DNA of 52,546 nt from Pseudoxanthomonas sp. (GTDB taxonomy: Bacteria > Pseudomonadota > Gammaproteobacteria > Xanthomonadales > Xanthomonadaceae), in contig JAGHZW010000213.1 in NCBI GenBank assembly GCA_017745195.1, forward strand, positions 17,999 to 70,544. Reading direction: 5' to 3'. The first letter of the stretch is position 1. Every line of letters starts with the position of its first letter. The notes below the pieces were generated by a model. The model worked only from the letters and a program-made list of their open reading frames with translations, did no database searches and was not told the origin of the DNA. Both the position numbers and the translations under genes were made by a program. Of the stretch, positions 24,916 to 46,553 are shown piece after piece.

Positions 24916-25053
24916 GGCAAGGTCCCTCGCAAAAAAGAACGCCCCGCGACTGGCATGGCCGGGCGGGGCGGGGTGCTTGCGGCCGCGGGTGTGCGCGACG
25001 ACCGCGGCATCGGAACGGCGGCGGCATGGCACGCGCCGCCACTCCGGCATAGC

Positions 25054-26725: not shown

Positions 26726-26805
26726 CGGTCGGCTCCTCGGGGCGGGGCGCGGTGCTGCTGGCGCGGGCCGCGGCATTGCGGTGGAAAGGCATTCTAGCGA
26801 ATGGC

Positions 26806-26820
26806 GGTAACCGGTGTCAT
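26806..26820. promoter_or_regulatory. LacI-type operator upstream of kduI
   Basis: GGTAACCGGTGTCAT (reverse complement ATGACACCGGTTACC) has a central CG and the ATGACACCG arm repeated at 31775, 42282, 45343 and 45455. It lies between the 3' end of the LacI gene and kduI, in the kduI promoter region. Confidence 0.78.
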
Positions 26821-29306: not shown

Positions 29307-29309
29307 GGA

Positions 29310-29834: not shown

Positions 29835-29845
29835 GGGGACTCGGC

Positions 29846-30865
29846 TCAGGCGAGGTCGCGGATGCGACGGTACAGCGCTTCGATCTCGGGAACGCGGTGG
29901 TATTCGTCCAGCAGTGGCTGCGCCGCCTTGCGGAACGCGGCCAGGTCGACGTCGTTGATCTTGATGCCGTGCTCGATCACCGCCTTGCGCGCCACGCCAT
30001 CCGACTCGTCCCACTTGGCGCGCATCAGCGGCACCGACTCGCGCGCCACGCGTAGCAGCAGCTCGCGGTCGGCGGGCGACAGCGACATGAAGCTGGCGCG
30101 CGACATCAGCAGCACGTCCGGCGCGTACGAGTGCCGGGTTTCCGACCAGTACTTCGCGGCTTCGAAGTGGCGGCTGGAGTGGAAACTGCGCATGTTGTTC
30201 TCGGCGCCATCGATCATGTGCGTTTCCATCGCCGAGAAGGTCTCGCCCAGCGACATCGGCGTCGGATTGGCGCCGAGCAGGCGGACCAGCTCGATGAAGA
30301 TGTCCGAGGCCGCCACGCGCATCTTCATGCCGTGCAGGTCCTTCGGCTCCACGATCGGGTGCTTGGTGTTGTAGAAGCAGCGCGCGCCGGAGTCGTAGAT
30401 GGCCAGGCCGACCAGCTCGCGGGTCTCGAAGCTGCGCAGCACCTCGTCGCCGACGTCGCCGTCGATGACCCGGCGCAGGTGCTCGACCGAATCGAATACG
30501 TACGGCAGGCACAGCGCCTGGGTCAGCGGGAAGGCGTTGTTGAGCGCGCCGGAGAACACCCGGGTGATGTCGATCACGCCGTAGCGGGCCATGTCGATGG
30601 CTTCCGACTCGCGGCCGAGCTGGCCGGAGTGGTACAGGCGCAGCTTCAGCCGGCCACCGGTCTCGCGTTCGAGGGTCTGCCCGATCCAGCGCACCGCTTC
30701 GACGGTCGGGTAGTCGGTGACGTGCACGTCGCTGGCGGTGAGCACGCGATGCCCTGCGTCGTCGATCTTGTCCGAGCCGGCGAAGGCACGCCCGCTCATG
30801 GCCAGCGGCAGCGCGCAGGCGCTGGCGCCGCCGAGCAGCAGCCGGCGCCGGGTCAGGCCGCTCAT
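29846..30865 (-). CDS. dctP: TRAP transporter substrate-binding protein (DctP)
   Basis: This 339-residue periplasmic binding protein has an Arg-rich signal (MSGLTRRRLLLGGASACALPLA). Typical DctP features include LKLRLYHSGQLGRESEAIDMAR, PYVFDSVEHLRRVIDG and the substrate-binding region GMKMRVAASDIFIELVRLLGANPTPMSLGETFSAM. The conserved Arg in KMRV normally binds the substrate carboxylate, in line with a uronate ligand. The start overlaps the stop of the hydratase-like gene (ATGA), so the genes are coupled. Confidence 0.93.
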   Translation of the reverse strand: MSGLTRRRLLLGGASACALPLAMSGRAFAGSDKIDDAGHRVLTASDVHVTDYPTVEAVRWIGQTLERETGGRLKLRLYHSGQLGRESEAIDMARYGVIDITRVFSGALNNAFPLTQALCLPYVFDSVEHLRRVIDGDVGDEVLRSFETRELVGLAIYDSGARCFYNTKHPIVEPKDLHGMKMRVAASDIFIELVRLLGANPTPMSLGETFSAMETHMIDGAENNMRSFHSSRHFEAAKYWSETRHSYAPDVLLMSRASFMSLSPADRELLLRVARESVPLMRAKWDESDGVARKAVIEHGIKINDVDLAAFRKAAQPLLDEYHRVPEIEALYRRIRDLA

Positions 30866-31704
30866 GCAGCCGGCTCCGCGCCGGCAGGCACCGCGTGGCA
30901 GTCGAGCGTGCCGTGGCCGTCGAACACCACGCGCGCGTGCTGGCCGGCGACGATGTCGTGGATGCCGGTGGCATTGCCGGTGGCGATGTACTCGCCGGCC
31001 CTGAGCGGGCGGCCGCGTCGGGCCGAGCGCGACAGGGCGAAGGCGAAGGCGGCGCGCAGGCCACCGGGCAGGCGCTGGGCGCCGCCGCTGCCGACGCTGG
31101 CGTCGTCGATGAAGGTCTCGGCCAGCAGCGTCGATTCGTCCAGTGCGGTCCAGCCGGGCACTTCCGCGCCCAGGATCAGGCCGTTGTTGTTGCCGAAGTC
31201 GGAAATCACCACGCGCGGGCCGAGTTCGTTGATCGTCGCCAGCGGACTGCTGGCCACTTCCACGCCGATATACAGGGTCGCCGGCAGCGCGGCGGCCTCC
31301 TCGGGGCTCCAGTCGAGCTTGCCTTCCGGGGCATCGGCGTCGAGCCGCAGCACGTATTCGGCCTCGACCGCGCCGAAGCCGCCGCTGAACACCGGAATCG
31401 GCGTGCTGCCACCGGTAGCATTCCAGAACCGGCGGGCGAAGATCGGGCCGAGCAGGCGCTCGTCGCCGGACCCGTCGCGGCGCTCCGCGGGGATGTAACC
31501 GACTTTCCAGCCGACCACGGTGTCCGGCCACTGGGCGATCGCCAGGTCCTGGACCTTGTAGGCGGTGACCAGGTCGCCGGGAATGGCGCCAGGAAAGGCG
31601 GCCAATGCCTCGCCGCGACGGCGCGCGGCGACGAACCGGTCCGCGATGGCCGACAGTTCCGTTGCCGCCGGCACGTCGCCGTCGTGGCCTGTAACAGTGC
31701 TCAA
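30862..31704 (-). CDS. 2-keto-4-pentenoate hydratase / FAH-superfamily enzyme
   Basis: This 280-residue protein resembles MhpD-type hydratases: DLAIAQWPDTVVGWKVGYI, GPIFARRF, EAEYVLRL, VISDFGNNNGLILG and AGEYIATGNATGIHDI. The family uses Mg2+ to hydrate or hydrolyse 2-keto acids. As first gene of the TRAP operon it may act on a 2-keto-3-deoxy sugar acid, but no substrate can be read from the sequence. The best start is a TTG at 31704 (GAGGAAACACC upstream); the frame continues upstream without homology and across the operator. Confidence 0.8.
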   Translation of the reverse strand: MSTVTGHDGDVPAATELSAIADRFVAARRRGEALAAFPGAIPGDLVTAYKVQDLAIAQWPDTVVGWKVGYIPAERRDGSGDERLLGPIFARRFWNATGGSTPIPVFSGGFGAVEAEYVLRLDADAPEGKLDWSPEEAAALPATLYIGVEVASSPLATINELGPRVVISDFGNNNGLILGAEVPGWTALDESTLLAETFIDDASVGSGGAQRLPGGLRAAFAFALSRSARRGRPLRAGEYIATGNATGIHDIVAGQHARVVFDGHGTLDCHAVPAGAEPAA

Positions 31705-31774
31705 GGTGTTTCCTCGGAAAAGTGCGCGTGATGTGTTGCGCCGCGGCTCGACAGCGAGCGCTTGGCCTGTATAT

Positions 31775-31790
31775 GGTAAACCGGTGTCAT
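31775..31790. promoter_or_regulatory. LacI-type operator in the divergent hydratase/esterase promoter region
   Basis: GGTAAACCGGTGTCAT (reverse complement ATGACACCGGTTTACC) lies 71 bp before the hydratase start (minus) and 66 bp before the esterase start (plus). One site could control both the TRAP operon and the three-esterase operon. Confidence 0.78.
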
Positions 31791-31855
31791 GCGGCAATGT
31801 GCACTGCGTCCCCGTATCGCTGCACGCTGCAACGCAACATCCGCAGGAGGGCTTC

Positions 31856-32893
31856 ATGCATGCATCCGGTTCGGTCCTGTCGGCCGTCCGTCAGCGGCCG
31901 ATCAGGGCCCGGTGGCGGGCCCTGCTGGCCAGTCTGGTGGCGCTGGCCACGATGACGGCGGTGCCGTCCCTGGCCGCGAACCCGCCGCCGCAGTTGCAGG
32001 TGTGGCCGGGCATGGCGCCCGGTTCCGAGGGCCTGGATCTGGTCCAGCGCGTGGTCGAACGCAGTACCGATCCGGCCCTGCCCGACCGCTATGTCGACAG
32101 CGTGGCCGCCCCGTCGCTGACCGTGTACCGCCCGGCCCATCCGGACGGTCGTGCACTGCTGGTGATCCCCGGCGGCGGCTACCAGCGCGTAGTCCTGGAC
32201 AAGGAAGGCAGCGCGCTGGCGCCGGCGTTCGCCGACGCCGGCGGCCTGACCCTGTTCGTCCTGCAGTACCGCCTGCCGGGCGAAGGCCATCGCAACGCGC
32301 GCGACGTGCCGCTGGCCGACGCCCAGCGTGCGCTGCGGCTGATCCGCCTGCACGCGGCCGAATGGGGCCTCGATGCGGCCAGCGTCGGGGTGATGGGTTT
32401 CTCTGCCGGCGGACACGTCGCCGCCAGCCTGGCCACGCGCCACGCCGAGCGCGCCTATGCGCCGCAGGACGCGGCCGATGCGCTGGACGCGCGGCCGGCG
32501 TATGCGGTGCTGGTCTATCCGGTGATCGACATGGGCGCGCACGCGCACCCCGGATCGCGGCAGAAACTGCTCGGCGATGCGCCGGATCCGGCGGCGGTGC
32601 GCGCGTACTCGCTGCAGGAGCGGGTCGACGCGTCGACCCCGCCGGTGTTCCTGCTGCATGCGCAGGACGACACCACCGTACCGGTGGAGAACAGCCTGTT
32701 GTTCGAGGCGGCGCTGCGTCGCGCCGGCATCGAACACGAAACCCACCTCTACGCGCACGGCGGCCACGGCTTCGGCGTGCGCGGCGCGCAGGGCACGCTG
32801 GCGTCGTGGCCGTCGCTGGCGATTGCCTGGATCCATGCGCATGCACTGCTGCCCCGCACCGCCAGCGCACCCTCCGACGACAGGACCGATTGA
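31856..32893 (+). CDS. Secreted alpha/beta-hydrolase (acetylxylan esterase-like)
   Basis: This 345-residue exported protein has an N-terminal hydrophobic signal (RALLASLVALATMTAVPSLA). The fold is alpha/beta-hydrolase of the BD-FAE/Axe type: oxyanion loop IPGGGYQRV, nucleophile Ser183 in GFSAGGH, Asp in LHAQDDTTVP and His in AHGGHGFG. Such proteins remove acetyl or feruloyl groups from plant polysaccharides. The ATG at 31856 has AGGAGG eight bases upstream. It is the first of three hydrolase genes, with only 3 bp before the next. Confidence 0.84.
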   Translation: MHASGSVLSAVRQRPIRARWRALLASLVALATMTAVPSLAANPPPQLQVWPGMAPGSEGLDLVQRVVERSTDPALPDRYVDSVAAPSLTVYRPAHPDGRALLVIPGGGYQRVVLDKEGSALAPAFADAGGLTLFVLQYRLPGEGHRNARDVPLADAQRALRLIRLHAAEWGLDAASVGVMGFSAGGHVAASLATRHAERAYAPQDAADALDARPAYAVLVYPVIDMGAHAHPGSRQKLLGDAPDPAAVRAYSLQERVDASTPPVFLLHAQDDTTVPVENSLLFEAALRRAGIEHETHLYAHGGHGFGVRGAQGTLASWPSLAIAWIHAHALLPRTASAPSDDRTD

Positions 32894-32896
32894 ACG

Positions 32897-34555
32897 ATGT
32901 CGAATCCGAATCCGCCGGCTGTCCCCGACACCACGACCGCCGATCCGCAGCGCCGCCGCCTGCTGCAGGCGGCCGGCGCGCTGACCGGCCTCGGCCTGGC
33001 CGGCGTGATGCCGTGGGCGCACGCCGCATCCGGCGCAAGGACTGTCGTCGCCGGCACCCGCCATGGCCGCGTGCGCGGCAGCGTCGAGCAGGGCGTGCAC
33101 GCCTTCCGCGGCATCCGCTACGGCGCCGACACCGCGCCCACCCGCTTCCAGCCGCCGCGCGCGCCGCAGGCCTGGCACGGCGTCGCCGACGCGCTGGCCT
33201 ACGGCGCGTCGGCACCGCAGCGCGGCAAGGAAGGACAGGAAGGCGGCGAGGATTGCCTGTTCCTCAACGTGTGGACGCCGGGCCTGGGTGATGGTGCGCG
33301 CCGGCCGGTGCTGTTCTACATCCACGGCGGCGGCTTCGACACCGGCTCGGGCAGTTCGCCGCTGTACGACGGCAGCCGCCTGTGCGTGCGCGGTGACGTG
33401 GTCGTGGTCACGGTCAACCATCGCCTCAACGCGTTCGGCTACCTGTACCTGGGCCAGCTCGGTGACGCCGGTTACGCCGCGTCCGGCAACGCCGGCCAGC
33501 TCGACCTGGTGCAGGCGTTGCAGTGGGTGCGCGACAACATCGCCGGATTCGGCGGCGATCCGGACAACGTCACCGTGTTCGGCCAGTCCGGCGGCGGCGC
33601 CAAGATCGCCACGCTGATGGCGATGCCGGCCGCGCGCGGTCTGTTCCACCGCGCCTGGACGATGAGCGGACAGCAGGTCACCGCCGCCGGTCCGCGCGCG
33701 GCGACGCAGCGTGCGCAACGCTTCCTCGAGACGGTCGGGATCGATCCGGCGGCGGCCGACGCGGTCGCGCGGCTGCGTGCATTGCCGGCGGAGCGGATCC
33801 TCGATGGCACGAGCGCCCGCGACTTCTCGCGGATCGAGGACACGCGCCTGTACTTCGGTCCGGTCATGGACAGCGAAGTGCTGCCGCGGCATCCGTTCTG
33901 GCCCGACGCGCCGGCGCAGTCGGCCGCGATCCCGATGGTGATCGGCAACACCCGCGACGAGACCCGCGCCTTCCTCGGCAACGATCCGCAGAACTTCGCC
34001 CTGGACTGGGACACGCTGCCGGCGCGGCTGGAGAAGAACCAGTTCGTCGACATCCGCGTCGACCGGGTGGTGGACGAATACCGGCGCCTGTATCCGCAGG
34101 CCACCGCGTCGGACGTGTTCTTCGCCGCGACCACCGCCGGCCGTTCCTGGCGCGGTGCGATCGAGGAACTGGAAGCGCGCGCGCGCCAGGAACACCCGCT
34201 GGCACCGACCTGGGCCTACCAGCTGGATTGGGGCTCGCCGCTGGACGGCGGCAGGTTCCGCGCCTTCCACACCCTGGACATCCCGCTGGTGTTCGACAAC
34301 ATCGGCCAGCCCGGCTCGCGCACCGGCAACGGCGCGGACGCGCAGGCGATGGCCGACGCGATGAGCGGTGCGTTGCTGGCGCTGGCGCGGCATGGCGATC
34401 CCAACCACGCCGGGCTCGCGCGCTGGGAGCCGTATTCGATGGCGCGCCGGCAGACCATGCTGTTCGACGTGCCGGCCACGCTGGCCGACGATCCGCGCGG
34501 TGCCGAACGCCGCTTCTGGCAGCAGGCGCCGTTCGTCCAGCGCGGCACGATGTGA
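32897..34555 (+). CDS. Type-B carboxylesterase, exported
   Basis: This 552-residue protein has a twin-arginine-like signal (QRRRLLQAAGALTGLGLAGVMPWAHA). The carboxylesterase type-B signatures are EDCLFLNVWTP, YIHGGGFDTGSG and the nucleophile elbow VFGQSGGGAKI (Ser231), with the acid in IGNTRDETRAF and the catalytic His probably in FRAFHTLDIP. The substrate is unknown. Here it probably cleaves ester side groups of the glycan. It is transcribed with its neighbours and its stop overlaps the next start. Confidence 0.86.
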   Translation: MSNPNPPAVPDTTTADPQRRRLLQAAGALTGLGLAGVMPWAHAASGARTVVAGTRHGRVRGSVEQGVHAFRGIRYGADTAPTRFQPPRAPQAWHGVADALAYGASAPQRGKEGQEGGEDCLFLNVWTPGLGDGARRPVLFYIHGGGFDTGSGSSPLYDGSRLCVRGDVVVVTVNHRLNAFGYLYLGQLGDAGYAASGNAGQLDLVQALQWVRDNIAGFGGDPDNVTVFGQSGGGAKIATLMAMPAARGLFHRAWTMSGQQVTAAGPRAATQRAQRFLETVGIDPAAADAVARLRALPAERILDGTSARDFSRIEDTRLYFGPVMDSEVLPRHPFWPDAPAQSAAIPMVIGNTRDETRAFLGNDPQNFALDWDTLPARLEKNQFVDIRVDRVVDEYRRLYPQATASDVFFAATTAGRSWRGAIEELEARARQEHPLAPTWAYQLDWGSPLDGGRFRAFHTLDIPLVFDNIGQPGSRTGNGADAQAMADAMSGALLALARHGDPNHAGLARWEPYSMARRQTMLFDVPATLADDPRGAERRFWQQAPFVQRGTM

Positions 34556-35268: not shown

Positions 35269-36456
35269 TCAGGGCGCGACGACGAGCGAGGCCAGCGGCA
35301 CCCGTGTCACCGCGATGTCTTCCTTGTTGATCGCGTAGGCGACATACAGGGATCCGTTCCAGACCACGCTCTTGGGATAGTGGTAGCCGGGCCGCTTGTA
35401 GCGGCCGGCGTGGCGCAGCGGCGGCAGCGTGTCGCCACCGCGCAGCAGGAAGCTGCGATCGAACACGCGCCCGTCGGCGGACAGGGTCAGCGCCAGCGGC
35501 ACGCGTACGCGGTCGGCATTGGACGCGTTGACCAGGAAGGCGCTGCCGTCGGCCAGGTTGCCGGCGCTCTGCTTGGCGCGCGCGTCCGGCATCGCCGTCA
35601 GTGCCGGCGTCGACCAGTGCTCGCCGCGATCGCAGCTTTCGCTGGCCAGCTGCCGGTAGCTGCTGGCCTGGTCGCGGAACACCATCACCGCGCACTCGCC
35701 GGCCGCGTCGCGGCGCAGGAACAGGCTCGGCTCCAGTTCGCGGCTCACCCGTCCCTCGTGTGCAAGGTTGGCCATCGCACCGCGCCGCCAGCCCGACACG
35801 CCGAGCGGATCGTCGGTGAAGAACGGCGCGACGATCATTCCCGGCCGGGTGTGGAACGCGCCGACGATCCGGCCATCGGCCAGCGCATGCGGATCCTGCT
35901 CGATGACGCCTTCGAGCGGGGCGCCGTCGCCGGCGGTCACGCGTTGCGGCGGCGACCAGTGGCTGCCATCGCTGCTGCGCATGTACGCGGTCCAGCCGCC
36001 GTCGCCGGACTGGAAGCCGCTGGGCCAGACGTTGAGGTAGGCGACCAGCGTATCGCCGTCGGTCCACCAGCCGCCGCTGGAATGCATCGCGCCGCCTTCG
36101 CCGGCCGGCGCCAGCACCTGCGGTGGCGACCAGTGCATGCCGTCGTCGCTGTGGCTGTACAGCACCCTCGTGTCCGCCGAGTCCTCGTCCTCGCGCGAGC
36201 TCTGCCACTGCACGTACAGCCGGCCCTTGAACGCGACCGGCACCGCGCCGTTGTTGAAGCGGTCCTGCGCCGGTGCCGGCGCGAACACGGTGAAGCTTTC
36301 GGTACCGGGGGCCGGACGCAGGCCGCGATCGGCGGCGGCCGGATCGAACAGACCGGGTGCGATCGCGTAGGGCGCATCGGCCGCGGGTTGCACGGTCGAC
36401 GCGGCCGGCACCCCGGCGGCGGCGAGAAGCAGCGACAGCAGGGTGGGCAGCGGCAT
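35269..36456 (-). CDS. Secreted BNR/sialidase-like beta-propeller protein
   Basis: This 395-residue protein has a signal peptide (MPLPTLLSLLLAAAGVPAAS). It shows several BNR/Asp-box-like S-x-D-x-G-x-x-W repeats: SHSDDGMHWSPP, MRSSDGSHWSPPQ and ESCDRGEHWSTP, as in sialidase-like propellers. The end (HYPKSVVWNGSLYVAYAINKEDIAVTRVPL) resembles BNR-type proteins of uronate-glycan loci. Propellers with this look occur in GH33 sialidases, GH145 and uronate lyases of PL24, PL25 and PL42; the sequence alone does not decide. No sialic acid catabolic gene is nearby, so a role on uronate or rhamnose-uronate linkages is more plausible. Confidence 0.72.
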   Translation of the reverse strand: MPLPTLLSLLLAAAGVPAASTVQPAADAPYAIAPGLFDPAAADRGLRPAPGTESFTVFAPAPAQDRFNNGAVPVAFKGRLYVQWQSSREDEDSADTRVLYSHSDDGMHWSPPQVLAPAGEGGAMHSSGGWWTDGDTLVAYLNVWPSGFQSGDGGWTAYMRSSDGSHWSPPQRVTAGDGAPLEGVIEQDPHALADGRIVGAFHTRPGMIVAPFFTDDPLGVSGWRRGAMANLAHEGRVSRELEPSLFLRRDAAGECAVMVFRDQASSYRQLASESCDRGEHWSTPALTAMPDARAKQSAGNLADGSAFLVNASNADRVRVPLALTLSADGRVFDRSFLLRGGDTLPPLRHAGRYKRPGYHYPKSVVWNGSLYVAYAINKEDIAVTRVPLASLVVAP

Positions 36457-36510
36457 GATCGATCCCGGTCGTGGGGTGCGGGGCGCAGCGCGCACCCTGC
36501 ACGTCGTTGC

Positions 36511-38103
36511 TCAGTAGTCGAGCGCGCGGTACCTGAAGTCGCGGAAGTGGACCTTGCCCTCGCCGGCGGCGTAGATCGCCGGCTTCAGCGCGAGGAACTG
36601 GCCGGCCACGTTGTGGTGGTAGCCGGACACCTCCATCTGCACCGGGTACTTCTGCCAGGTCTTGCCGTCGGTGCTGGTGTGGATGGTCAGGATGTGCTGG
36701 TTGTTGGTCACGCGCAGCCACAGGCGGCCGCCCTTGCCTGGCGGCAGGCCACCGGTCGGGCGTTCCTGGCCGTAGCGGTGCATCACGAACTTTTCGCCGT
36801 TGCTGCCCACGCCCGCGTACAGCCGGTCGTTGTAGAACAGCAGCGCGCCACCGACTGCGCCCGGCTCGATCTCCATCTCCACTTCGAACTGGTAGGCCTT
36901 GTCGCCGGCGATCACGGTCAGCGGCGAGCTGTCGGCTGGCGTGCGGCCCTTGCCCTGCACGGTCATCGCGCCGTCGCCGAAGGACAGGCGCTTGTACTCG
37001 TCCTGCGCCGGCGCGAAGAACGACCACTGGCCGCCCAGCGACGTGCCATCGAAGCTGTCCGACAGGGCCATGCCATGCTGGCCCACCGAGGTGCCGCTGG
37101 GCTTCTTCAGCGGCTTGCCGAGGTCGCCGCCCCTGGCGACGAACCAGCCGTCGGCGGTCCACTCGATCGGTTCGAGCAGCGCCTGCCGGCCCAGCGTCCA
37201 GTACCCGTTCTCGTAGCCGTGGTACATCATCCACGAACGGCCGTCGGTGCCGTCGACCAGCGTGGCGTGGCCGCGCGACCACCACGGTTCATCGCGGCTG
37301 ACGGTGCGGGTGATCGGATTGTGCGGCGAGTTCTGCCACGGCCCGTGGATCGACTTCGAGCGCGCGGTGATGACCATGTGCCCGGTCGGTGGGCCGGCGG
37401 TGCCGCCGACCGCAGTGGTCATGTAGTACCAGTCGCCGTGCTTGCTGATCTTCGGGCCTTCCTGCGCGTAGCCTTCCACGTCCCAGCTTTCCGGATACTT
37501 CCAGCCGTCGTAGACGTGCTTGGGTTCGCCGACCACGCTCAGGCCGTCGTCGGACAGCTGCACGTAGTCGCCACCTGACAGGAACAGGTAGCGCTTGCCG
37601 TCCTCGCCGACCGCATGGCCCGGATCGATGTATTTGCCCAGGCCCAGGTTGACCGGCTCGCTCCACGGGCCGCGGATGTCGTCGGCCCAGACCACGTAGT
37701 TGCTGCGCAGGTTGCCTTCGGTGCCGCCGGTGCGGGCCGGGAAATAGATGTAGTAGCGGCCCTTGTGCTTGACGATGTCCGGCGCCCACACCGAGCCGAC
37801 GTTCCTGGTGATCGCATGGCCCAGCGGCTGCCAGTTGACCAGGTCGCGCGAGTGCCAGATCGGCAGGCCGGGATAGGCGTCGAACGAGGACGAGGTCAGG
37901 TAGTAGTCGTCGCCGTCCTTGAGCACGGACGGATCGGGCCGGTCGCCGGCGAACACCGGATTGAGATAGGTGCCGTCACCGAGGTCGGCCTGGCGCTGGT
38001 GTTCGATGCCGCGCTTCCACGGACTGGTGGTGGCGACGGGCGCGGCGGCATGCGCCGCCAGCGGCAGCATCAGGAACAGCAGCGAGGAAACGCGGAAGAC
38101 CAT
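36511..38103 (-). CDS. Glycoside hydrolase family 43 protein with C-terminal beta-sandwich
   Basis: This 530-residue secreted enzyme has signal peptide MVFRVSSLLFLMLPLAAHA. The GH43 five-bladed propeller (about 40-340) shows the catalytic base Asp in AGDRPDPSVLKDGDDYYL, the modulating Asp in KYIDPGHAV and the acid Glu in YAQEGPKISK. A C-terminal concanavalin-like domain follows (QFEVEMEIEPGAVGGALLFYNDRLYAGVG). Related enzymes are xylosidases, arabinofuranosidases or galactosidases. The start at 38103 has GGAG six bases upstream; ATG 38115 is an alternative. It is downstream of the giant LamG gene on the same strand. Confidence 0.85.
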   Translation of the reverse strand: MVFRVSSLLFLMLPLAAHAAAPVATTSPWKRGIEHQRQADLGDGTYLNPVFAGDRPDPSVLKDGDDYYLTSSSFDAYPGLPIWHSRDLVNWQPLGHAITRNVGSVWAPDIVKHKGRYYIYFPARTGGTEGNLRSNYVVWADDIRGPWSEPVNLGLGKYIDPGHAVGEDGKRYLFLSGGDYVQLSDDGLSVVGEPKHVYDGWKYPESWDVEGYAQEGPKISKHGDWYYMTTAVGGTAGPPTGHMVITARSKSIHGPWQNSPHNPITRTVSRDEPWWSRGHATLVDGTDGRSWMMYHGYENGYWTLGRQALLEPIEWTADGWFVARGGDLGKPLKKPSGTSVGQHGMALSDSFDGTSLGGQWSFFAPAQDEYKRLSFGDGAMTVQGKGRTPADSSPLTVIAGDKAYQFEVEMEIEPGAVGGALLFYNDRLYAGVGSNGEKFVMHRYGQERPTGGLPPGKGGRLWLRVTNNQHILTIHTSTDGKTWQKYPVQMEVSGYHHNVAGQFLALKPAIYAAGEGKVHFRDFRYRALDY

Positions 38104-38201
38104 CTTCGACTCCATTGCGGGGGTGGAGGCAGGGCTGGCACGCCATGGGTGCAGGTCCTGCAGGAACAACCGCGCGGGCTCGCGCCCGCGCGGGTCGGAC
38201 G

Positions 38202-41200
38202 TCAGTGCAGCGGACGGCGGTTGTTGAGCCGGGTGGTTTCCTCGGCGTCGCCGTCCAGCGAAACGCGTACGTGCAGGTTGGCCGGGTCGATGCCGGTCGG
38301 CAGCGGCAGGCGCACCTGCGTGGTCCTGGGCTTCAGGTCGGCCGGAGCTTCCATCGCCGGCACGACCGCGCGCGCCAGCTCGCGGCCACGCGCATCTTCC
38401 AGCACCGCGTAGCCGGTGCCGGTGCCGACATGGCCCAGGCTGTGCACGGTCAGCTCGACCACGCCATCGGCCACGCGCACGTCGCCGCGGCCGATGCCCA
38501 GGTCCGGGCGGCGATCGACCGGCGTGCCCTTCTCCACCAGTTCGAACTCCATCACCACCGTCTGCATCGGCGGGAACACCACGTCCACCGATGCGCTCTT
38601 CTCCAGGGTGAACTCGCGCGTGGTGGCCTTGCCGTCGATGCGGTCGTCGCCATCGCGATCGCTGCCGCTGGTCATCCGCCAGGTGCCGGCGTCGATGTTC
38701 CAACCGGTCATCGTCGCGTGCTGCGCCCGCTTGCCGGTATTGAAGCCGATCACCTTGAAGCGGTCGCGACGCGGGTCGGGCACCAGGATCGCGACCTGCT
38801 CGGCCGCGCCGTCCTGCGCGAAGCGCCAGCTGACGGTATGGCCGGGATAGGACTGGTTGCGCTCCAGCGCGATGCCGCCCAGGCGCTCGCGCTGCAGCAG
38901 GTCGGTCGCCACTTCCACGCGGTCGGACCACCAGTGGCCTTCGGTGACCATGTACGCGTACAGGGCCTTGGTCTCGATCGCCTCGGCGTGCAGCGCTTCC
39001 AGGTACTTCTTGTCGCCGGTGAGCTGCCAGGCGACGAGGCTGGCGAAGCCGGTGTCGCCCTTGTCGGCGTTTTCGACCAGCGTCTTGCCCCAGTCGGCCT
39101 GGCGGCCGAGCACGCTCAGGAAGTTCTCGCCGACATTGCCCAGGCTGCCGACGCCGCTGCGCAGGGCGCGGTAGTCGAGCGCGCGTAGGTAGCGGTCGTC
39201 GCCGGTCCAGCGCCACGCGGCCCAGAACAGGTGCATCACGTCGCCTGCGCCCGAACCCTTGACCAGTTCGCCGCCGCGGGTCTTGCCGGTAGCCCAGTTG
39301 ATCTCGTTGGGCAGCACCCACTGGCCGTCCTCGGCGGTGTAGGCGTGGGCCAGGTAACCATCGGCCAGGCCGGTGACCAGCTTGCGGCCGGTCGGGTCGG
39401 CGTTCCAGTCGCCGAGCAGGAACGCCGGCGCCAACGCCGGGAACGAATACGGCTTCTGCCACTGCCAGTTCGGCTCGCGGTAGACCTTGTTGCCGCCGTA
39501 CCAGTTGCTGGAGAACAGCAGGTGGCCCTGCGGATTGGGCAACACGATGCGCTCGTCGAACGCCTCGACCGTGCCCATCAGCCGCTCGAGGGTCAGCGGA
39601 TCGCCCCAGTTGAGGTAGAGCATCGCGCTGTTGGCGTTGATGCCGTCCTCGTAGGCGTGCAGCTCGTCGGTGGTGATCGCGCCCATGCCATTGGCGAACA
39701 TGTCGTTGCGGTAGATCGCATCGGACAGCGCGGTCATCGAGGCGTTGATCTTGTCCGGCTGCACGCCCATCAGCGCGATGCCCGGCCACTGCTGGATCAG
39801 GTCGGAATCGTCGGACAGGCCACCACCGAAATCGCCGTACTCGACCTGGCGGTTGTCGATCCACCAGTCGACGAAGCGGCGCGCGTAGCCGAGATCCTCG
39901 AGCTGGCGGAACGCCCACAGCGGCACGCCCTTCGGCGCCCGCGGCTGGGTGAACGGCGGCCGGCCCTGGCTGTTGTAGCTGATGTCGTTCCAGTACTGGC
40001 GGCCGAGCACATGGTCCGGATCGACCCGCAGCAGGTCCGACAGGTCGGCGAACAGGCGCGAATACAGGCGCTGGCGCTTGGAGGTGGTGTGTTCCTCGAC
40101 CAGGAAGCCCCAGTTGTCGCGGACCTGGTTGAAGCGGTCGGCGACGTGCTCCTTCTTCGCCTCGGCGCGGTCCTTGAACACCAGGCGGATCTGCGCGCCA
40201 TCGAGCGAGCTCGCGTTGAAGCCGGGCGCGGCCGAGGCGACGCTGAGCCACAGGCTGTCGGCGCTGAGGATGCGGTCGCGCAGGTCCAGCCACAGCGTGC
40301 GCTTCTGGTTCGGCTTGACCGACACCGACACGTCGATCATGTCGCGCGCAGGCCAGATCGGATCCTTGATCCGGATGTTGAGCGGGATCAGGCCGTCCTG
40401 CGTGGCCGGCAGGTCCAGCGCGGGAAGGTCGATGGCCACGCCATCCAGGCCGTCGTACATGTTCTCCCAGCTGTAGGACCAGCTGCGGATCAGCGGCTGC
40501 GCGGCCGGCGCGGCGCCGACGCTCGAAGGAATGAGCACGTGCACGATCGGCTCGGGCGACGCCGGCAGGGTGTCGTCGTCGCGCTTGCGCGAACCTGCTC
40601 CCTTGGGCAGCGCCAGCACCGTGCTGCGCCCGGCGGGCTGGAAGCGGCCGTCGATGTAGCGGCGCAGCGCCTGCACGTTCTCGTAGTCGGGCAGCGCGGT
40701 GCTGTTGACGATGTAGGTCTGTTTGACCGTGCCCTTCGGCTCGGCCGCATCGCTGGCGTGGTAGGCCCAGATCTCCTGGATCGGGGTTTCCTGGGTGGTG
40801 TTGGTGAAGCGCACGTGGCCGCCGCGGCGTTCGGCGAAATCGTCGACGCTGCGGACCACGCCCTGCGCGCGCTCGAACAGCGGCTGCAGGTGCGTCGCAT
40901 CGCTGCCGTAGCTGGCCTGGCCGTAGGCGGCGCCGCGGATCTCGATGCGGTTGAACGGTTCGTCGGGCATGGTCAGGTCCAGCGCCTGGCCGCCTTCGAC
41001 GTAGGTGTTCCAGTCGGGCAGCTGGAAGTAGTCCAGGCGGCCGGGCAGGCGCGAGCGGTTGTACACGCCGGGCCAGGTCGTCTCCGGGATGCCGTCGCTG
41101 CCCTTCCACATCCACGCCTTCTTGTCGCGCACGTCGTCGAAGCCGAGCAGGCGGATCGTGTTCGTCGCCGCCTGCAGCGCCGGCGGCGTGGCGTGGTCCC

Positions 41201-42029
41201 AGCCGTAGCGGTGGCGCCACGCGGCAGTGCGCGCGTCATCGCCGATCGCGACCGCCGTCGTCGGCGTGGCGCGGGCCAGGTCGCCGCGCCTGGCCAGCAC
41301 GGCGACACCCGATGCATCGAGCATGCGGTCGTAGACGCGGATCTCGTCGAAGTCGCTGCCGCGCAGGAAGTTGTAGCGACTCTGCACCTGGTAAGGCGCC
41401 ATCACCCGCCCGGCCAGACCGAGCTGGTCGAGCGCGGCGTCGTAGTCGGCGGTGGTGTCGACCTTCGCCACTTCCCTGCCATCGACGAACAGGCGCACGC
41501 CCCGGGTCTCGTCCCAGGCGAAGGCCAGGTGGGTCCAGTCGTCCGGACCTGGCGCCTTGTCGAGCTTGAACGACACCCGCGTGCGCGCCAGGTTGGCGTC
41601 GGTGACGAACGCGTCGAAACCATGGCCGTTCCAGTCGATGCGCAACCAGGCCATGTCCCAGCTGCTGTGGTCGGCGTAGCCGACGCGGAAGATCACGAAC
41701 GGCGCCTCGCCCACCGCATAGCGCGGGCGCCAGAAGAACGACAGCGTGCCGCGCTCGGCGAAGATGTTGCCCGGCGCATCCCAGGCCAGCACGCCATCGT
41801 CGGCCCATTCGATCGCGCCACCCTGCACGCCGGTCGGAACGATCTTCACCCGGTCCTGGAAGTTGGGCACCGCTTCGCCGCCGGCGTGGTCGGCGACGAA
41901 GCCCTGGTCGGCCGAGACACGGAACAGCAGCTGCGGCGGATCACCCGGCGGTGCGGCCAGGGCTGGCAGCGCCGCCAGGGTCGAGCCGAAGAGCAGGGAA
42001 TGCAGGCAGGTGCGGAGGGACGACTTCAT
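38202..42029 (-). CDS. Giant secreted LamG-containing protein of unknown activity
   Basis: This 1275-residue protein has a signal peptide (LHSLLFGSTLAALPALAA). Residues 40-240 look like a LamG/concanavalin jelly-roll (GTLSFFWRPRYA, DWTHLAFAWDETRGVRLFVDGREV, FDEIRVYDRMLD). The middle contains beta-rich segments (FNRIEIRGAAYGQASYG). A long, apparently helical region (about 640-1000: PLWAFRQLEDLGYARRFVDWWIDNRQVEYGDFGGGLSDDSDLIQQWPG, GNVGENFLSVLGRQADWGK, MVTEGHWWSDRV) is Trp-, Asp- and Glu-rich, like an alpha/alpha-barrel carbohydrate enzyme. A C-terminal beta region follows. I cannot place it in a named GH or PL family. Its context makes it a depolymerase candidate. Confidence 0.8.
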   Translation of the reverse strand: MKSSLRTCLHSLLFGSTLAALPALAAPPGDPPQLLFRVSADQGFVADHAGGEAVPNFQDRVKIVPTGVQGGAIEWADDGVLAWDAPGNIFAERGTLSFFWRPRYAVGEAPFVIFRVGYADHSSWDMAWLRIDWNGHGFDAFVTDANLARTRVSFKLDKAPGPDDWTHLAFAWDETRGVRLFVDGREVAKVDTTADYDAALDQLGLAGRVMAPYQVQSRYNFLRGSDFDEIRVYDRMLDASGVAVLARRGDLARATPTTAVAIGDDARTAAWRHRYGWDHATPPALQAATNTIRLLGFDDVRDKKAWMWKGSDGIPETTWPGVYNRSRLPGRLDYFQLPDWNTYVEGGQALDLTMPDEPFNRIEIRGAAYGQASYGSDATHLQPLFERAQGVVRSVDDFAERRGGHVRFTNTTQETPIQEIWAYHASDAAEPKGTVKQTYIVNSTALPDYENVQALRRYIDGRFQPAGRSTVLALPKGAGSRKRDDDTLPASPEPIVHVLIPSSVGAAPAAQPLIRSWSYSWENMYDGLDGVAIDLPALDLPATQDGLIPLNIRIKDPIWPARDMIDVSVSVKPNQKRTLWLDLRDRILSADSLWLSVASAAPGFNASSLDGAQIRLVFKDRAEAKKEHVADRFNQVRDNWGFLVEEHTTSKRQRLYSRLFADLSDLLRVDPDHVLGRQYWNDISYNSQGRPPFTQPRAPKGVPLWAFRQLEDLGYARRFVDWWIDNRQVEYGDFGGGLSDDSDLIQQWPGIALMGVQPDKINASMTALSDAIYRNDMFANGMGAITTDELHAYEDGINANSAMLYLNWGDPLTLERLMGTVEAFDERIVLPNPQGHLLFSSNWYGGNKVYREPNWQWQKPYSFPALAPAFLLGDWNADPTGRKLVTGLADGYLAHAYTAEDGQWVLPNEINWATGKTRGGELVKGSGAGDVMHLFWAAWRWTGDDRYLRALDYRALRSGVGSLGNVGENFLSVLGRQADWGKTLVENADKGDTGFASLVAWQLTGDKKYLEALHAEAIETKALYAYMVTEGHWWSDRVEVATDLLQRERLGGIALERNQSYPGHTVSWRFAQDGAAEQVAILVPDPRRDRFKVIGFNTGKRAQHATMTGWNIDAGTWRMTSGSDRDGDDRIDGKATTREFTLEKSASVDVVFPPMQTVVMEFELVEKGTPVDRRPDLGIGRGDVRVADGVVELTVHSLGHVGTGTGYAVLEDARGRELARAVVPAMEAPADLKPRTTQVRLPLPTGIDPANLHVRVSLDGDAEETTRLNNRRPLH

Positions 42030-42281: not shown

Positions 42282-42297
42282 ATGACACCGATGGTCA
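42282..42297. promoter_or_regulatory. LacI-type operator upstream of the LamG gene
   Basis: ATGACACCGATGGTCA differs by one base from the two identical sites at 45343 and 45455. On the minus strand it is preceded by the run CTATTTT, a possible -10 element. Confidence 0.78.
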
Positions 42298-42480: not shown

Positions 42481-45282
42481 TCAGAACTTGTAGCGGATGC
42501 CCAGCAGGACCTGGCGACCGGTCTCGGCGTAGTCGAGCGGCAGCTGCGAGGTCGCACCCACCCACGACTGCAGCGTCGGCTCGTTGGTCAGGTTGATGCC
42601 TTCCAGGCTCAGCTCGATCTGCTCGCTCATCTTGTAGCGCACCGAAGCATCGACGAAGGTGCTGCCGGTCTGGCCATGCACGTCCTCGGTGAAGCCCGCC
42701 TCGGTGCCCGGTACCTGGATCAGGTAGTCGTCGCGGTTGGTGGCCGAGACGCGGCCGGCGAACTTGGCGCCTTCGTAGAACAGGGTGGCGTTCCACGAGT
42801 GGCGCGACAGGCCCAGCAGGTCGGTCTTCAGCGAGCTGGCGCCCGTGGAGGTCAGGTACTGGATCTCCGAATCGACGTAGGTGTAGTTCAGCTGGACGCC
42901 GAGGTTGCTCCAGTTGCCCGGCAGGAAGGTGAAGGGCTGGATGTAGTTGGCTTCCAGGCCCTTGACCGGACCGCCCGGCGAGTTGACCGGAACCGAGAAC
43001 ACGAAGTCGTCGGTCGGGCTCACGCCGAAGCTCTCGGCGACGCTGTCGGGCAAACCGCTGGTGTAGAACGGACGCACCTCGCGGGTGGTCTGCGCCCAGC
43101 TTTCGATGTCCTTGTAGAACAGACCCAGGCTCAGCAGGCCCGCGTCCTGGAAGTACCACTCGGTGCTGAGGTCGTAGTTGGTTGCGCGGGTCGGATCCAG
43201 GTTCGGATTGCCGCCGGTGATGGTGCGCGCGCCGCCGCTGACGCTGACGGTATTGCCGGGGGTCAGGCTGCCCAGGCTCGGGCGGCTCATCACCTTGGCC
43301 GCGGCGAAGCGGACCAGCAGGTCCGGCATGACCTCGGCGACCAGGTTCAACGACGGCAGGGTGTCGCTGTATTCGCGCTCGGCGACGATCGGGGTCAGCA
43401 CGCCGCCGATGGTGGCCAGGCCGCTGGCGGTCTGCTTGGTCTTGACGTAGCGCACGCCGAAGTTGCCCGAGAACGGCACGTTGCCCAGGTCGGTCGAGAA
43501 CTCGCCCATCAGGTAGCCGCCGCGGTCCTTCTCCTCGACGCTGCGGTCGCTGGCCGCGTACGGGCTGAGGGCGAAGGTGCCCTGGCCGCTGAAGATGTCG
43601 AAGTAGTCGGCGATGGAATCGAAGTTCGGCACGACCCAGGCGCCGGGCGAGCCGTCGACGCCGCTGAGGCGGGCCATCTGGATCATGTCGACCGGCACGA
43701 TCGGCGTGCCGCTGGCGAAGTTCGGCACGATCGCCTCGTTGGCGGTACGGCGCCACTCCATCGAGTCGAAGGTGTAGTCCTTGGCCAGCACGCCGCCCTT
43801 CAGGCGGAAGCCGGGGCTGATCGCCCAGTCGAAATCGAGCTGCGCGGTGTCGAAGTCGTTCTCGACCTGGTTCTGGCGCATGCGGATGGTGGACAGCTCC
43901 CAACCGTTCGGGTTGGTCGGGTCGATGCCGTAGTTGAGCACCGGCGCCCACTTGTCGCCGCGGTAGTCGTAGCTGTACCCGTCGACGTCGTTCTTGTCCA
44001 TCATGATCGTCGCCTGGATCGGGTTGTCGTGCTTGGACGACGAGGTGCCGATCTTGCCGCTGATGCTGAAGGCGTCGTTGAACTCGTGCTCACCGCTCAG
44101 GCTGATCTGCTTGAACTCGGTGCTCCACTCGTCGTAGCGGTTCTCCGCGCGCACGTCGACGTTGTCGAACTGGCCGTAGAGCAGGGCGCCGGTGGCCGGA
44201 TCGATGTAGCCGTCCTTGACGATGGTGTTGGGCTTGCCGACGATCTTGGTCCCGTTCGGCAGCGTGGTCGTGTTGCGGCTGAAGGAGATCGCCTCGATGT
44301 AGTTCTCGCGGCGCTTCGCATCGATGTTCGAGTACAGCGCGTCGAGCGAGAACTCGGTGCTGTCGGTCGGCTTGAACTGCAGCGAGCCGGTGATGCCGGT
44401 GCGCTCCTGCTCGTGCTTCATCCAGGTGTAGCGCGGGAAGCGCGGGTGGTAGACGTCGGCCGCCAGCGCGTCGGTGAACGGCGAGGTCTTGGAGAAGCCG
44501 CCGTTGCTCGGGCCGTTGGCCCAGCGGCCGCTGCCGGTGCCTTCTTCCAGCGCTTCGCGCTCGGAATAGGCCACCGAAAGCAGGGCGCCGAACTTGCCGT
44601 CGGCCCAGGTGTTGGCGATCAGGCCGGCGAAACGCGGGTCGGCCGCGCCGGCCATGTCGTTGTAGCTGGCCTGGGCGCTGGCGGCGACGGTGAAGCCGTC
44701 GAAGTCGAACGGCTTGGAGGTGTTCAGGTCGACCGTGGCGCCGAGCGAGCCTTCCTCGACGTCGGCCTGCGCGGTCTTGCGCACGATCATCTGCGAGAAC
44801 AGGTCCGAGGCGAAGACGTTGAAGTCGAAGCCGCGGCCGCGGTTGGTGCCGCCGTTCTGGTCGGTACTGCCGACCGTGGTCATGGCTTCCATCCCGTTGA
44901 TGCGCACGCGGGTGAATTCCGGACCCAGGCCGCGCACGGAGATGCTGCGGCCTTCGCCGCCGTCGCGGGTGATGACCACGCCCGGGATGCGCTGCAGCGA
45001 CTCGGCCAGGTTCAGGTCGGGGAACTTGCCCACGTCCTCGGAAACGATCGCGTCCACCACGCCGGCTTCGCCGCGCTTGATGTCGATGGCGCGCTCGAGG
45101 CTGGCGCGGTAGCCGGTGACGACGATGGTGTCCAGGTCGGTCGTCTGTCCGGCGCCAGCGGCCTGATCCTGCGCCGTGGCGGTGGCATCCTGGGCGAACG
45201 AAGCCGGCACGTACAGCGCCAGGCCGATCGCGGCGGCCAGTAAGGTAACCGGTGTCTTCCGGCGAATGTTGCGGGTATGCAT
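42481..45282 (-). CDS. TonB-dependent receptor (oligosaccharide-type)
   Basis: This 933-residue outer-membrane transporter has a signal peptide (RKTPVTLLAAAIGLALYVPASFAQ). The TonB box region is DLDTIVVTGYRASLERAIDIKR, the Xanthomonas oligosaccharide-receptor type. The plug domain contains ESLQRIPGVVITRDGGEGRSISVRGLGPEFTRVRINGME, then a long 22-strand-type barrel, ending RQVLLGIRYKF with the terminal Phe needed for assembly. The start ATG 45282 has GGGAGGGG upstream. Operators at 45343 and possibly 45244 control it, and a terminator follows. It probably imports oligosaccharides released by the locus enzymes, powered by the ton operon at 9556-11961. Confidence 0.95.
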   Translation of the reverse strand: MHTRNIRRKTPVTLLAAAIGLALYVPASFAQDATATAQDQAAGAGQTTDLDTIVVTGYRASLERAIDIKRGEAGVVDAIVSEDVGKFPDLNLAESLQRIPGVVITRDGGEGRSISVRGLGPEFTRVRINGMEAMTTVGSTDQNGGTNRGRGFDFNVFASDLFSQMIVRKTAQADVEEGSLGATVDLNTSKPFDFDGFTVAASAQASYNDMAGAADPRFAGLIANTWADGKFGALLSVAYSEREALEEGTGSGRWANGPSNGGFSKTSPFTDALAADVYHPRFPRYTWMKHEQERTGITGSLQFKPTDSTEFSLDALYSNIDAKRRENYIEAISFSRNTTTLPNGTKIVGKPNTIVKDGYIDPATGALLYGQFDNVDVRAENRYDEWSTEFKQISLSGEHEFNDAFSISGKIGTSSSKHDNPIQATIMMDKNDVDGYSYDYRGDKWAPVLNYGIDPTNPNGWELSTIRMRQNQVENDFDTAQLDFDWAISPGFRLKGGVLAKDYTFDSMEWRRTANEAIVPNFASGTPIVPVDMIQMARLSGVDGSPGAWVVPNFDSIADYFDIFSGQGTFALSPYAASDRSVEEKDRGGYLMGEFSTDLGNVPFSGNFGVRYVKTKQTASGLATIGGVLTPIVAEREYSDTLPSLNLVAEVMPDLLVRFAAAKVMSRPSLGSLTPGNTVSVSGGARTITGGNPNLDPTRATNYDLSTEWYFQDAGLLSLGLFYKDIESWAQTTREVRPFYTSGLPDSVAESFGVSPTDDFVFSVPVNSPGGPVKGLEANYIQPFTFLPGNWSNLGVQLNYTYVDSEIQYLTSTGASSLKTDLLGLSRHSWNATLFYEGAKFAGRVSATNRDDYLIQVPGTEAGFTEDVHGQTGSTFVDASVRYKMSEQIELSLEGINLTNEPTLQSWVGATSQLPLDYAETGRQVLLGIRYKF
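45244..45256. promoter_or_regulatory. Operator-like site inside the receptor signal-peptide codons
   Basis: GGTAACCGGTGTC equals the core of the kduI operator and the second LamG operator. It falls in the codons for TPVT of the receptor signal peptide, 100 bp from the site at 45343. A coding coincidence is possible, as this peptide is common in such receptors. Confidence 0.4.
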
Positions 45283-45342
45283 ATCCCCTCCCAAAGGAAA
45301 TACTCGTGACTCTCGTGGATAGCGAAACGGTCATTGCCAGCT

Positions 45343-45358
45343 ATGACACCGCTGGTCA
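45343..45358. promoter_or_regulatory. LacI-type operator upstream of the receptor gene
   Basis: ATGACACCGCTGGTCA is identical to the site before kdgK. It lies 61 bp upstream of the receptor start. TTGACC on the minus strand within it may serve as a -35 element, so bound repressor would block polymerase. Confidence 0.82.
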
Positions 45359-45454: not shown

Positions 45455-45470
45455 ATGACACCGCTGGTCA
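45455..45470. promoter_or_regulatory. LacI-type operator upstream of kdgK
   Basis: ATGACACCGCTGGTCA, an exact copy of the receptor operator, lies 67 bp before the kdgK start and overlaps its probable promoter (TAGAAT at 45451 is a possible -10). Confidence 0.82.
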
Positions 45471-45536: not shown

Positions 45537-46553
45537 ATGGCGCGTGTCGTGTGTTTCGGTGAACTGCTGCTGCGCATGAGCGCGCCCGGCCGCGAGCGGC
45601 TGCTGCAGAGCCCCCAGCTGGAAGTGCGCATCGGCGGTGCCGAGGCCAATGTCGGCGTGTCGCTGGCGTATTTCGGCCACCAGGTCGCGGCGGTGAGCAC
45701 CGTGGCCGACAACGCGCTGGGCGAGGCCGCCAGCGGCGAGCTGCGCCGGCACGGGCTGGACACCACCGCGGTGCGCAAGGTGCCCGGGCGCATGGGCCTG
45801 TACTTCCTCGCCCCCGGCGCGATCCACCGTCCGGCCGAGGTCCTCTACGACCGCGCCGGCTCGGCCTTCGCCCTGGCCCCGGCCGACGCCTACGACTGGC
45901 CGGCCCTGCTCGACGGTGCCGACTGGCTGCACCTGTCCGGGGTGACCCCGGCGCTGGGCGCCAACACCGCCGCCACCGCCCTGGCCGCCGCGCGCGCCGC
46001 GCGCCGGGCGGGGGTCAAGGTCTCGTTCGACGGCAACTTCCGGCCCAAGCTGTGGGAGGTGTGGAAGGGCGATGCCAAGGCGATCCTGTCCGAGCTGATG
46101 GCCGAGGCCGACCTGCTGTTCGCCGACTACCGCGACATGGGCGTGGTGCTCGGCGGCCAGTATCCGCAGGCCGCGGCGCTGGCCCGGGTCGAGGCCGCGG
46201 CCGCCGATGCGTTCGCCGCCTTCCCGCACCTGAAGTGGATGGCCTGCACCATCCGCGAACCGCGCAACGTCGATGCGCACGCGCTGTCGGGCGTGCTGGT
46301 CGGCCGCGACGCCGGCACCGCGCTGGCGCCGCAGGAGGAAGTGGGCCCGATCGTCGATCGCATCGGCGGCGGCGATGCCTTCGCCGCCGGGGTGCTGCAC
46401 GGCCTGGTCAAGGGTTGGATGCCGGAGAAGACCATCCGCTTCGGCCTGGCCGCCGGCTGCCTCAAGCATTCGATCCCCGGCGACTTCAACCTGGTTTCCG
46501 AAGCCGACGTCGAAGCGCTGGTCGGCGAAGGGCGCTTCGACGTCAAGCGCTAG
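45537..46553 (+). CDS. kdgK: 2-keto-3-deoxygluconate kinase (PfkB family)
   Basis: KdgK phosphorylates 2-keto-3-deoxygluconate to KDPG for entry into the Entner-Doudoroff pathway. The 338-residue protein has the PfkB features RIGGAEANVGVSLAYFG near the N-terminus and DRIGGGDAFAAGVLHGL with the catalytic Asp. Context (kduI, kduD, shared operator) supports the KDG assignment over other sugars. The ATG at 45537 is preceded by GAGGAGAAG. It is divergent from the receptor and convergent with the next gene with a 3-bp gap. The aldolase that cleaves KDPG is not in this window. Confidence 0.9.
   Translation: MARVVCFGELLLRMSAPGRERLLQSPQLEVRIGGAEANVGVSLAYFGHQVAAVSTVADNALGEAASGELRRHGLDTTAVRKVPGRMGLYFLAPGAIHRPAEVLYDRAGSAFALAPADAYDWPALLDGADWLHLSGVTPALGANTAATALAAARAARRAGVKVSFDGNFRPKLWEVWKGDAKAILSELMAEADLLFADYRDMGVVLGGQYPQAAALARVEAAAADAFAAFPHLKWMACTIREPRNVDAHALSGVLVGRDAGTALAPQEEVGPIVDRIGGGDAFAAGVLHGLVKGWMPEKTIRFGLAAGCLKHSIPGDFNLVSEADVEALVGEGRFDVKR

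Follow-up and report, generated by a model that had tools for sequence, protein, structure and literature searches.

In this work we have followed up a 52,546-nucleotide stretch of Pseudoxanthomonas sp. DNA (hereafter the window), and in it a gene for a large LamG-containing protein (the LamG gene and the LamG protein). We hold it to be somewhat probable that this protein is a secreted pectate (oligogalacturonate) depolymerase that cleaves galacturonan by beta-elimination. The lyase family that it would represent appears to be new, since it was not matched to any described one as far as Pfam, NCBIfam and the sequences of the Protein Data Bank (PDB) go. The initial annotation, made from the letters alone, had proposed a glycan-degrading enzyme that feeds KduI, KduD and KdgK. 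The genomic context supports this well by way of PL10 and CE8 neighbours, linkage to KduI and alternation with a PelZ-like pectate lyase, while catalysis, reaction type and exact substrate stay at the level of prediction. Among the pectic, glucuronan and arabinogalactan substrates that had been named, the context favours the pectic one, galacturonan.

The neighbourhood of the gene was analysed in relatives. In a contig collection, 448 of 503 pattern-matched stretches proved to be relatives, as did three plasmid records; the best 80 of the 448 stretches (L035-L114), with flanks of up to 8 kb, are called the relative loci here, and together with the three plasmids, which have 18 kb flanks, they make up a set of 83. 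By tblastn, 30 of the 80 relative loci have a gene for a PL10 pectate lyase, mostly just upstream of the LamG gene, and 24 have one for a CE8 pectinesterase; Pfam confirmed PL10 in L035 and L038, CE8 in L038 and L062, and PL1 in L042. In a sample of 299 genomes of the order, 37 of which carry the LamG gene at full length, PL10 is present in 18, and 12 of these 18 also have the LamG gene. The two genes lie on one strand with a spacing of 109-279 bp in 10 of the 12 shared genomes, and in G292 the matches to both are interrupted by a stop. Because PL10 and CE8 genes adjoin the LamG gene, the locus is a pectin locus in many carriers, and these neighbours together with the Kdu genes place the LamG gene in a galacturonan utilisation locus, though not in every carrier. 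KduI is found in 33 of 37 genomes with the LamG gene vs 56 of 262 without it (Fisher test, kinship ignored; both counts are taken as covering the same 299 genomes). Companions in the 83 loci were a TonB-dependent receptor (TBDR) in 80, KdgK in 51, the carboxylesterase in 42, the hydratase-like protein in 40, DctP in 32 and GH43 in 21.

A locus of this kind has been described in Xanthomonas campestris, where, according to excerpts of Blanvillain et al. (PMC1790865), the TBDR gene XCC0120 lies upstream of pectin methylesterase and pectate lyase genes and is induced by polygalacturonate; the same excerpts state that two other Xanthomonas lack this trio, although the genes on either side of it are conserved. 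Judging by synteny, the LamG gene would lie beside XCC0120 in X. campestris, and the gene order TBDR-CE8-PL10-LamG gene in L127 suggests that XCC0123 is the X. campestris orthologue. No mention of XCC0123 was found in the open-access papers searched.

A further contextual argument is the alternation of the LamG gene with a known type of pectate lyase. Five KduI loci without the LamG gene (L122, L123, L124, L125 and L128) each encode a PelZ-like protein of about 450 amino acids. The four that were run against Pfam gave no match at 0.001; the one from L125 matches PDB entry 9buj, a "pectate lyase", with E 2e-20, and the NCBIfam PelZ model with E 1e-118, below its cut-off. According to PMC11229556, 9buj is PfPL1 of subfamily PL1_2, which also includes PelZ. 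The L125-type lyase is found in none of the 37 LamG carriers but in 14 of 16 KduI-bearing non-carriers of the bacterial family (53 genomes; Fisher p 5e-11, with p-values inflated by shared descent). The two non-carriers without it are G170, which has just one KduI, of a different type with a stronger score, and G219, whose assembly is fragmented; these features may account for the exceptions. When the set is defined by the window sequence type of KduI, which in some carriers does not lie beside the LamG gene, 46 of 47 genomes of the family hold exactly one of the two (LamG gene 32, PelZ-like lyase 14), and G219 holds neither. On a tree of these 47 KduI proteins the state changes at least four times, and well supported branches alone force three changes for the PelZ-like state. 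The PelZ-like lyase is likewise absent from the relative loci (0 of 80), and the LamG protein gave no BLASTP match at E 1 to four PelZ-like proteins. A further 15 genomes of the order, from outside the family, have KduI but not the LamG gene; PelZ-like matches occur in 11 of them (1e-10), three being weak or partial, and four have neither gene. In Sphingomonadaceae with similar gene sets, Novosphingobium capsulatum (L033) has the LamG gene, and N. aromaticivorans (L207) and Sphingobium (L208) the PelZ-like lyase; the two are never together in these three stretches, and no kduI was found in L207.

The source of unsaturated uronate was a further point of the initial annotation, which had recognised no known polysaccharide lyase in the window. 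This holds for the types searched, as tblastn found no PL10, PL1, CE8 or PelZ-like homologue there, and in the window genome (87.6% complete) no PL10, PF00544, PelZ-like lyase or GH88/105 was found. All 25 carriers without PL10 are also without the PelZ-like lyase, and nine of them have PF00544, so that 16 of 37 carriers, the window genome included, gave no match to any of these three types of pectate lyase; KduI is present in 13 of these 16. PL22 was found in 0 of 53 genomes, a result that is uninformative, as control genomes gave no match either. We favour beta-elimination because the LamG gene swaps with a PL1_2-like lyase, because the lyases searched are absent from many carriers, and because the Kdu genes fit.

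Several observations weigh against this reading. PL10 or PF00544 is present in 21 of 37 carriers, such that the LamG protein is not always the sole lyase, and beside PL10 it may act after the lyase rather than as one. KduI is missing in four of 37 carriers, the stretches examined of carriers L032, L034, L097, L133 and L135 contain no Kdu gene, and several Xanthomonas-type genomes have their KduI gene at a great distance or on a different contig. Furthermore, in G699, a genome of another class, a single locus with KduI, KduD, TBDR, CE8 and KdgK contains both the LamG gene and, at a distance of about 12 kb, the PelZ-like lyase; the two are therefore not always substitutes. PL10 also occurs in four of the five PelZ-like loci examined, so that the PelZ-like lyase is not always the sole lyase either, and the changes on the tree may partly reflect transfer of kduI itself between genomes. 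Finally, neither sequence nor fold separates a lyase from a hydrolase, as the toroid described below fits both.

The protein itself had been described as secreted, operator-controlled, the largest of the locus, and composed of a jelly-roll N-terminus and a long Trp/Asp-rich helical region, and this description has stood up well. The 1275-residue open reading frame is present and lies on the minus strand, which had not been given, with an ATG start at 42029. The mechanical reading frame is longer (GTG at 42557, 1451 amino acids), but we placed the start at the ATG because homologues align from this region. The codon-position GC content, computed on the longer frame, is 0.67/0.50/0.89. The N-terminus, judged by eye, is Sec-like and resembles a signal peptide, and the jelly-roll part is matched by Pfam PF13385 (LamG_3) with E 1.1e-8 and 35.8 bits vs a curated cut-off of 27.6; the domain recurs in 19 of 20 sequences of a relatives alignment (E up to 1). 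The LamG protein is the largest assigned to the locus, the TonB receptor having 937 amino acids, and residues 605-1075 of the LamG protein contain 4.5% W and 8.1% D. The initial annotation had named, as the outcome that would speak against it, that the protein clearly belongs to a family already characterised or without enzymes, and the searches did not return this: LamG_3 alone lies above cut-off in Pfam, NCBIfam gave no match, and single-sequence and profile searches of PDB chains gave nothing credible and no lyase. In three annotated records examined, the protein is named just "LamG domain-containing protein".

The helical region takes the form of an alpha/alpha toroid in both AlphaFold2 models. 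A run on residues 246-1275 (52 sequences, pLDDT 82.5, pTM 0.78) placed the toroid between beta domains on both sides, and it was reproduced when residues 605-1075 were modelled alone (pLDDT 80.7, pTM 0.80). The alpha/alpha barrel that had been suggested as a check is supported as a fold, the structural matches being weak and the active site a candidate only. Foldseek with the toroid against the PDB gave 243 matches, with E-values of 0.0035 and above and with GH47, glucose-2-epimerase, GH88, GH105 and GH76 structures; TM-scores by target do not exceed 0.50 in the 50 matches listed. In our view these matches support an alpha/alpha barrel, not any family. Whole-model matches such as complement C3b were rejected as composite and spurious.

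Conservation was evaluated in an alignment of 15 sequences from two classes. The block at residues 312-341 is very highly conserved, with low-confidence placement in the AlphaFold2 model, and in the motif at residues 735-744 positions G735-G737, S739-D741, D743 and L744 are invariant. Further conserved polar clusters are TDELHxYEEGIN (787-798), GHWW(S/T)DRV (1031-1038) and QRxRLGG (1046-1052), in which H791, Y793, E794 and R1037 are invariant, and we regard the motif, these clusters and the block as candidates for the active site.

The main rival, which we consider unlikely, is a GH88/GH105-like hydrolase that removes unsaturated galacturonate from lyase-made oligogalacturonides. An adjoining PL10 would provide its substrate, and GH88 (2fv0, 1vd5, 3wiw) and GH105 (4xuv) structures are among the 14 best matches of the toroid, though weakly so (E 0.008 to 0.021, TM by target 0.40-0.45). 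PF07470, the family of GH88/105, is found in just one of 37 carriers, so that this work would otherwise seem undone in most. However, PF07470 is rare in the whole order (20 of 299 genomes), and its exclusivity with the LamG gene was rejected as evidence, one of 37 carriers vs 19 of 262 non-carriers being not significant (p 0.49). Profile comparison (hhalign) of the LamG protein domain with 12 PF07470 proteins gave a probability of 1.8%, and with six PL10 proteins 0.4%; a distant kinship to PL10 or GH88/105 would still be compatible with this, because the domain profile is shallow (Neff 1.7). It is the PelZ-like lyase, not GH88/105, with which the LamG gene alternates, and in the 16 carriers named above a hydrolase would find none of the three lyases to feed it.

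It is less likely still that the protein belongs to a CAZy lyase or glycosidase family already described, for example near PL27, an L-rhamnose-glucuronate lyase family with a beta-sandwich and an (alpha/alpha)6 domain. Profile searches of all PDB chains gave no lyase; the 50 Foldseek matches listed include neither PL27 nor PL26 structures by name, their presence in the searched PDB set being unchecked; and the context points to galacturonan, not gum arabic, with further beta domains after the toroid. PL27 as the family of the LamG protein is not supported by these searches. LamG domains are often binding modules, and a TonB receptor gene is present in 80 of the 83 loci, as would suit a non-catalytic glycan-binding protein at the cell surface, by which pectin is captured for this receptor. 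We consider this very improbable, since size, toroid fold and invariant polar motifs fit an enzyme, and it is an enzyme with which the LamG gene swaps.

If the LamG protein is a pectate depolymerase, we infer catalysis, beta-elimination, substrate and order of steps as follows. The protein would sit on the outer face or in the periplasm as part of a pectin utilisation locus, and its toroid, aided by the N-terminal LamG and beta-sandwich domains, would cleave pectate or oligogalacturonate by beta-elimination to leave 4,5-unsaturated galacturonate ends. The products would enter via the TonB-dependent receptor and small unsaturated uronates via the TRAP transporter. Linearisation by a cupin may follow, and KduI, KduD and KdgK would convert these uronates to KDPG. 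In this way the protein would fill the role that the PelZ-like PL1_2 pectate lyase has in sister genomes. A wider proposal, which we find possible but somewhat doubtful, is that of a new lyase family, a galacturonan lyase of about 1.25 thousand residues with LamG domain and toroid, that has replaced the PL1_2 beta-helix lyase in pectin loci of Xanthomonadaceae and Sphingomonadaceae in several swaps, can be the sole depolymerase, and perhaps frees unsaturated monomer directly so that GH88/105 is unneeded.

Table. Coordinates of the LamG gene, its parts, neighbouring genes and operator-like sites in the window.
Feature	Position	Strand	Basis
LamG gene (LamG-containing secreted protein, candidate pectate/uronan depolymerase)	38202..42029	-	Open reading frame, translation, homologues
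LamG_3 (concanavalin A-like) domain, residues 92-242	41304..41756	-	Pfam PF13385
Conserved block DGIxETTWPGVYNRSRLxGRxDYFxLPDWN, residues 312-341, possible active-site loop	41007..41096	-	15-sequence alignment; role inferred
GGGxSDDxDL motif, residues 735-744, candidate catalytic/metal-binding cluster	39798..39827	-	Alignment; function inferred
Alpha/alpha toroid and edges, residues 605-1075, presumed catalytic domain	38805..40217	-	AlphaFold2, Foldseek
Operator-like site ATGACACCGATGGTC upstream of LamG gene	42282..42296	+	
Operator-like site before TonB-dependent receptor gene	45343..45357	+	
Operator-like site before kdgK	45455..45469	+	
Operator-like site before kduI	26806..26820	-	
Operator-like site before hydratase/TRAP operon	31776..31790	-	
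PfkB sugar kinase, KdgK-like	45537..46553	+	Pfam; NCBIfam KDG-kinase models below cut-off
TonB-dependent receptor	42481..45294	-	Pfam
GH43 glycosidase with GH43_C2	36511..38115	-	Pfam
BNR_2 beta-propeller protein	35269..36495	-	Pfam
Carboxylesterase	32897..34555	+	Pfam COesterase
BD-FAE-type esterase	31856..32893	+	tblastn with Pfam BD-FAE relative (L040:14063-15061), 55% identity; open from ATG 31856
2-keto-4-pentenoate-hydratase-like protein	30862..31857	-	NCBIfam E 2.6e-5, below cut-off; true start probably inside reading frame
TRAP transporter (DctP 29846-30865, DctQ 29310-29834, DctM 28023-29306)	28023..30865	-	Pfam
LacI-family regulator	26870..27925	-	Pfam
KduI	25877..26776	-	NCBIfam PRK00924, 408 bits vs cut-off 250
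KduD	25054..25809	-	NCBIfam TIGR01832, 415 bits vs cut-off 339
GDSL esterase fused to cupin_2	23776..25050	-	Pfam; partial match to pectin acetylesterase PaeY, NCBIfam below cut-off

With respect to regulation, ATGACACCGNTNNNC occurs five times in the window, one copy being 253 bp upstream of the LamG gene, as compared to 0.01 expected by chance from shuffles for a pattern that was chosen after the sites were seen. The 10-base core of this putative operator has 181 copies in the 80 relative loci vs nine in one base-shuffled draw. Counted over the 500 bp upstream of each gene in the relative loci, it precedes kdgK in 46 of 49, TBDR in 44 of 47, the hydratase gene in 27 of 39 (from the first aligned base), GH43 in nine of 20, the carboxylesterase in 0 of 41 and BNR_2 in 0 of eight. 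Upstream of the LamG gene it was found in four of 79 within 500 bp and in five of 79 within 900 bp. As the operator precedes kdgK and TBDR and seldom the LamG gene, the latter is probably read from the TBDR promoter in relatives.

Some of the neighbours deserve comment. We take the cupin of the GDSL-cupin fusion to be perhaps KdgF-like, and a stand-alone cupin that follows the pectate lyase in N. aromaticivorans and Sphingobium may likewise correspond to a KdgF-like step. The hydratase-like protein, unmatched in Pfam at 0.001, often accompanies Kdu genes in gamma- and alphaproteobacterial pectin loci (40 of 83 loci) and might act on unsaturated uronate; we know of no role in the Kdu pathway for such a protein. 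The BNR_2 protein has a short match to a BT_1020-like N-terminal propeller model and is present in eight of 83 loci.

Carriers among the records include Xanthomonas, Stenotrophomonas, Pseudoxanthomonas, Luteimonas and some sphingomonads. The match is free of internal stops in 36 of the 37 carriers of the order, G292 having one TAG. In a phylum sample, seven of 398 genomes match at E 1e-5, one of them with the LamG part alone, and the gene is found in three of 240 genomes of the class of G642. This genome and G516, G699 and G840 are presumably Alphaproteobacteria, given their shared class and the likeness of L136 to the Sphingomonas locus L114. Across the 15 aligned sequences the least similar, which are alphaproteobacterial, still share about 46% identity with the window protein at full length, and none of 79 pattern-matched stretches of viral contigs is a relative. 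A record titled Bacillus subtilis (L057) carries the locus with 72% identity, which is in the Stenotrophomonas range, and is probably a contaminating contig. A partial second copy (residues 993-1272, 58% identity) stands beside the full gene at G298:C2:5955-6803, and in N. capsulatum a small second LamG protein directly follows the large one (L033:21732-22415).

The type of locus is known, and the enzyme family seems to be a new one as judged from the libraries searched; no paper describing the LamG protein was found in the open-access literature, among the matches listed and judged by title and opening of the abstract. Should the protein be a lyase, the capacity of plant-associated and environmental carriers to degrade pectin would be under-called, because PL10, PF00544 and PelZ-like searches all came back empty in 16 of 37 carriers, and it would help to explain how the Kdu pathway is supplied where no GH88/105 is found.

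The LamG protein was also compared with the closest known systems (PMC8377490, PMC3551730 and PMC5132194 were drawn on as well). PL27 (BT0263, an L-rhamnose-alpha-1,4-D-glucuronate lyase) shares the plan of a beta-sandwich and an (alpha/alpha)6 domain, but the LamG protein lies in a galacturonan context and has extra C-terminal beta domains; no PDB chain of the BT0263/BACCELL_00875 kind was matched, a PL27 entry in the searched set being unchecked and no direct sequence comparison made. GH88/GH105 enzymes would likewise feed the Kdu enzymes and weakly match the toroid in fold, whereas the LamG protein has no PF07470 match and the low profile probability given above. PL10 pectic acid lyases are also alpha/alpha helical, and their gene is the immediate neighbour of the LamG gene in many relatives, but they have about 370 amino acids and no sequence relation to the LamG protein (no Pfam PF09492 match, and the hhalign result above). 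The LamG protein is no PL1 or PL1_2 enzyme in sequence, with no Pfam (PF00544) or NCBIfam (PelZ) match and an alpha/alpha model; 9buj has 458 residues and folds as a parallel beta-helix, in contrast to 1275 residues of LamG domain, beta domains and alpha/alpha toroid. Nevertheless, it is PL1_2 (PelZ, PfPL1) that occupies the same kind of locus, with TBDR, Kdu genes, GH43, carboxylesterase and hydratase, and that alternates with the LamG protein between genomes.

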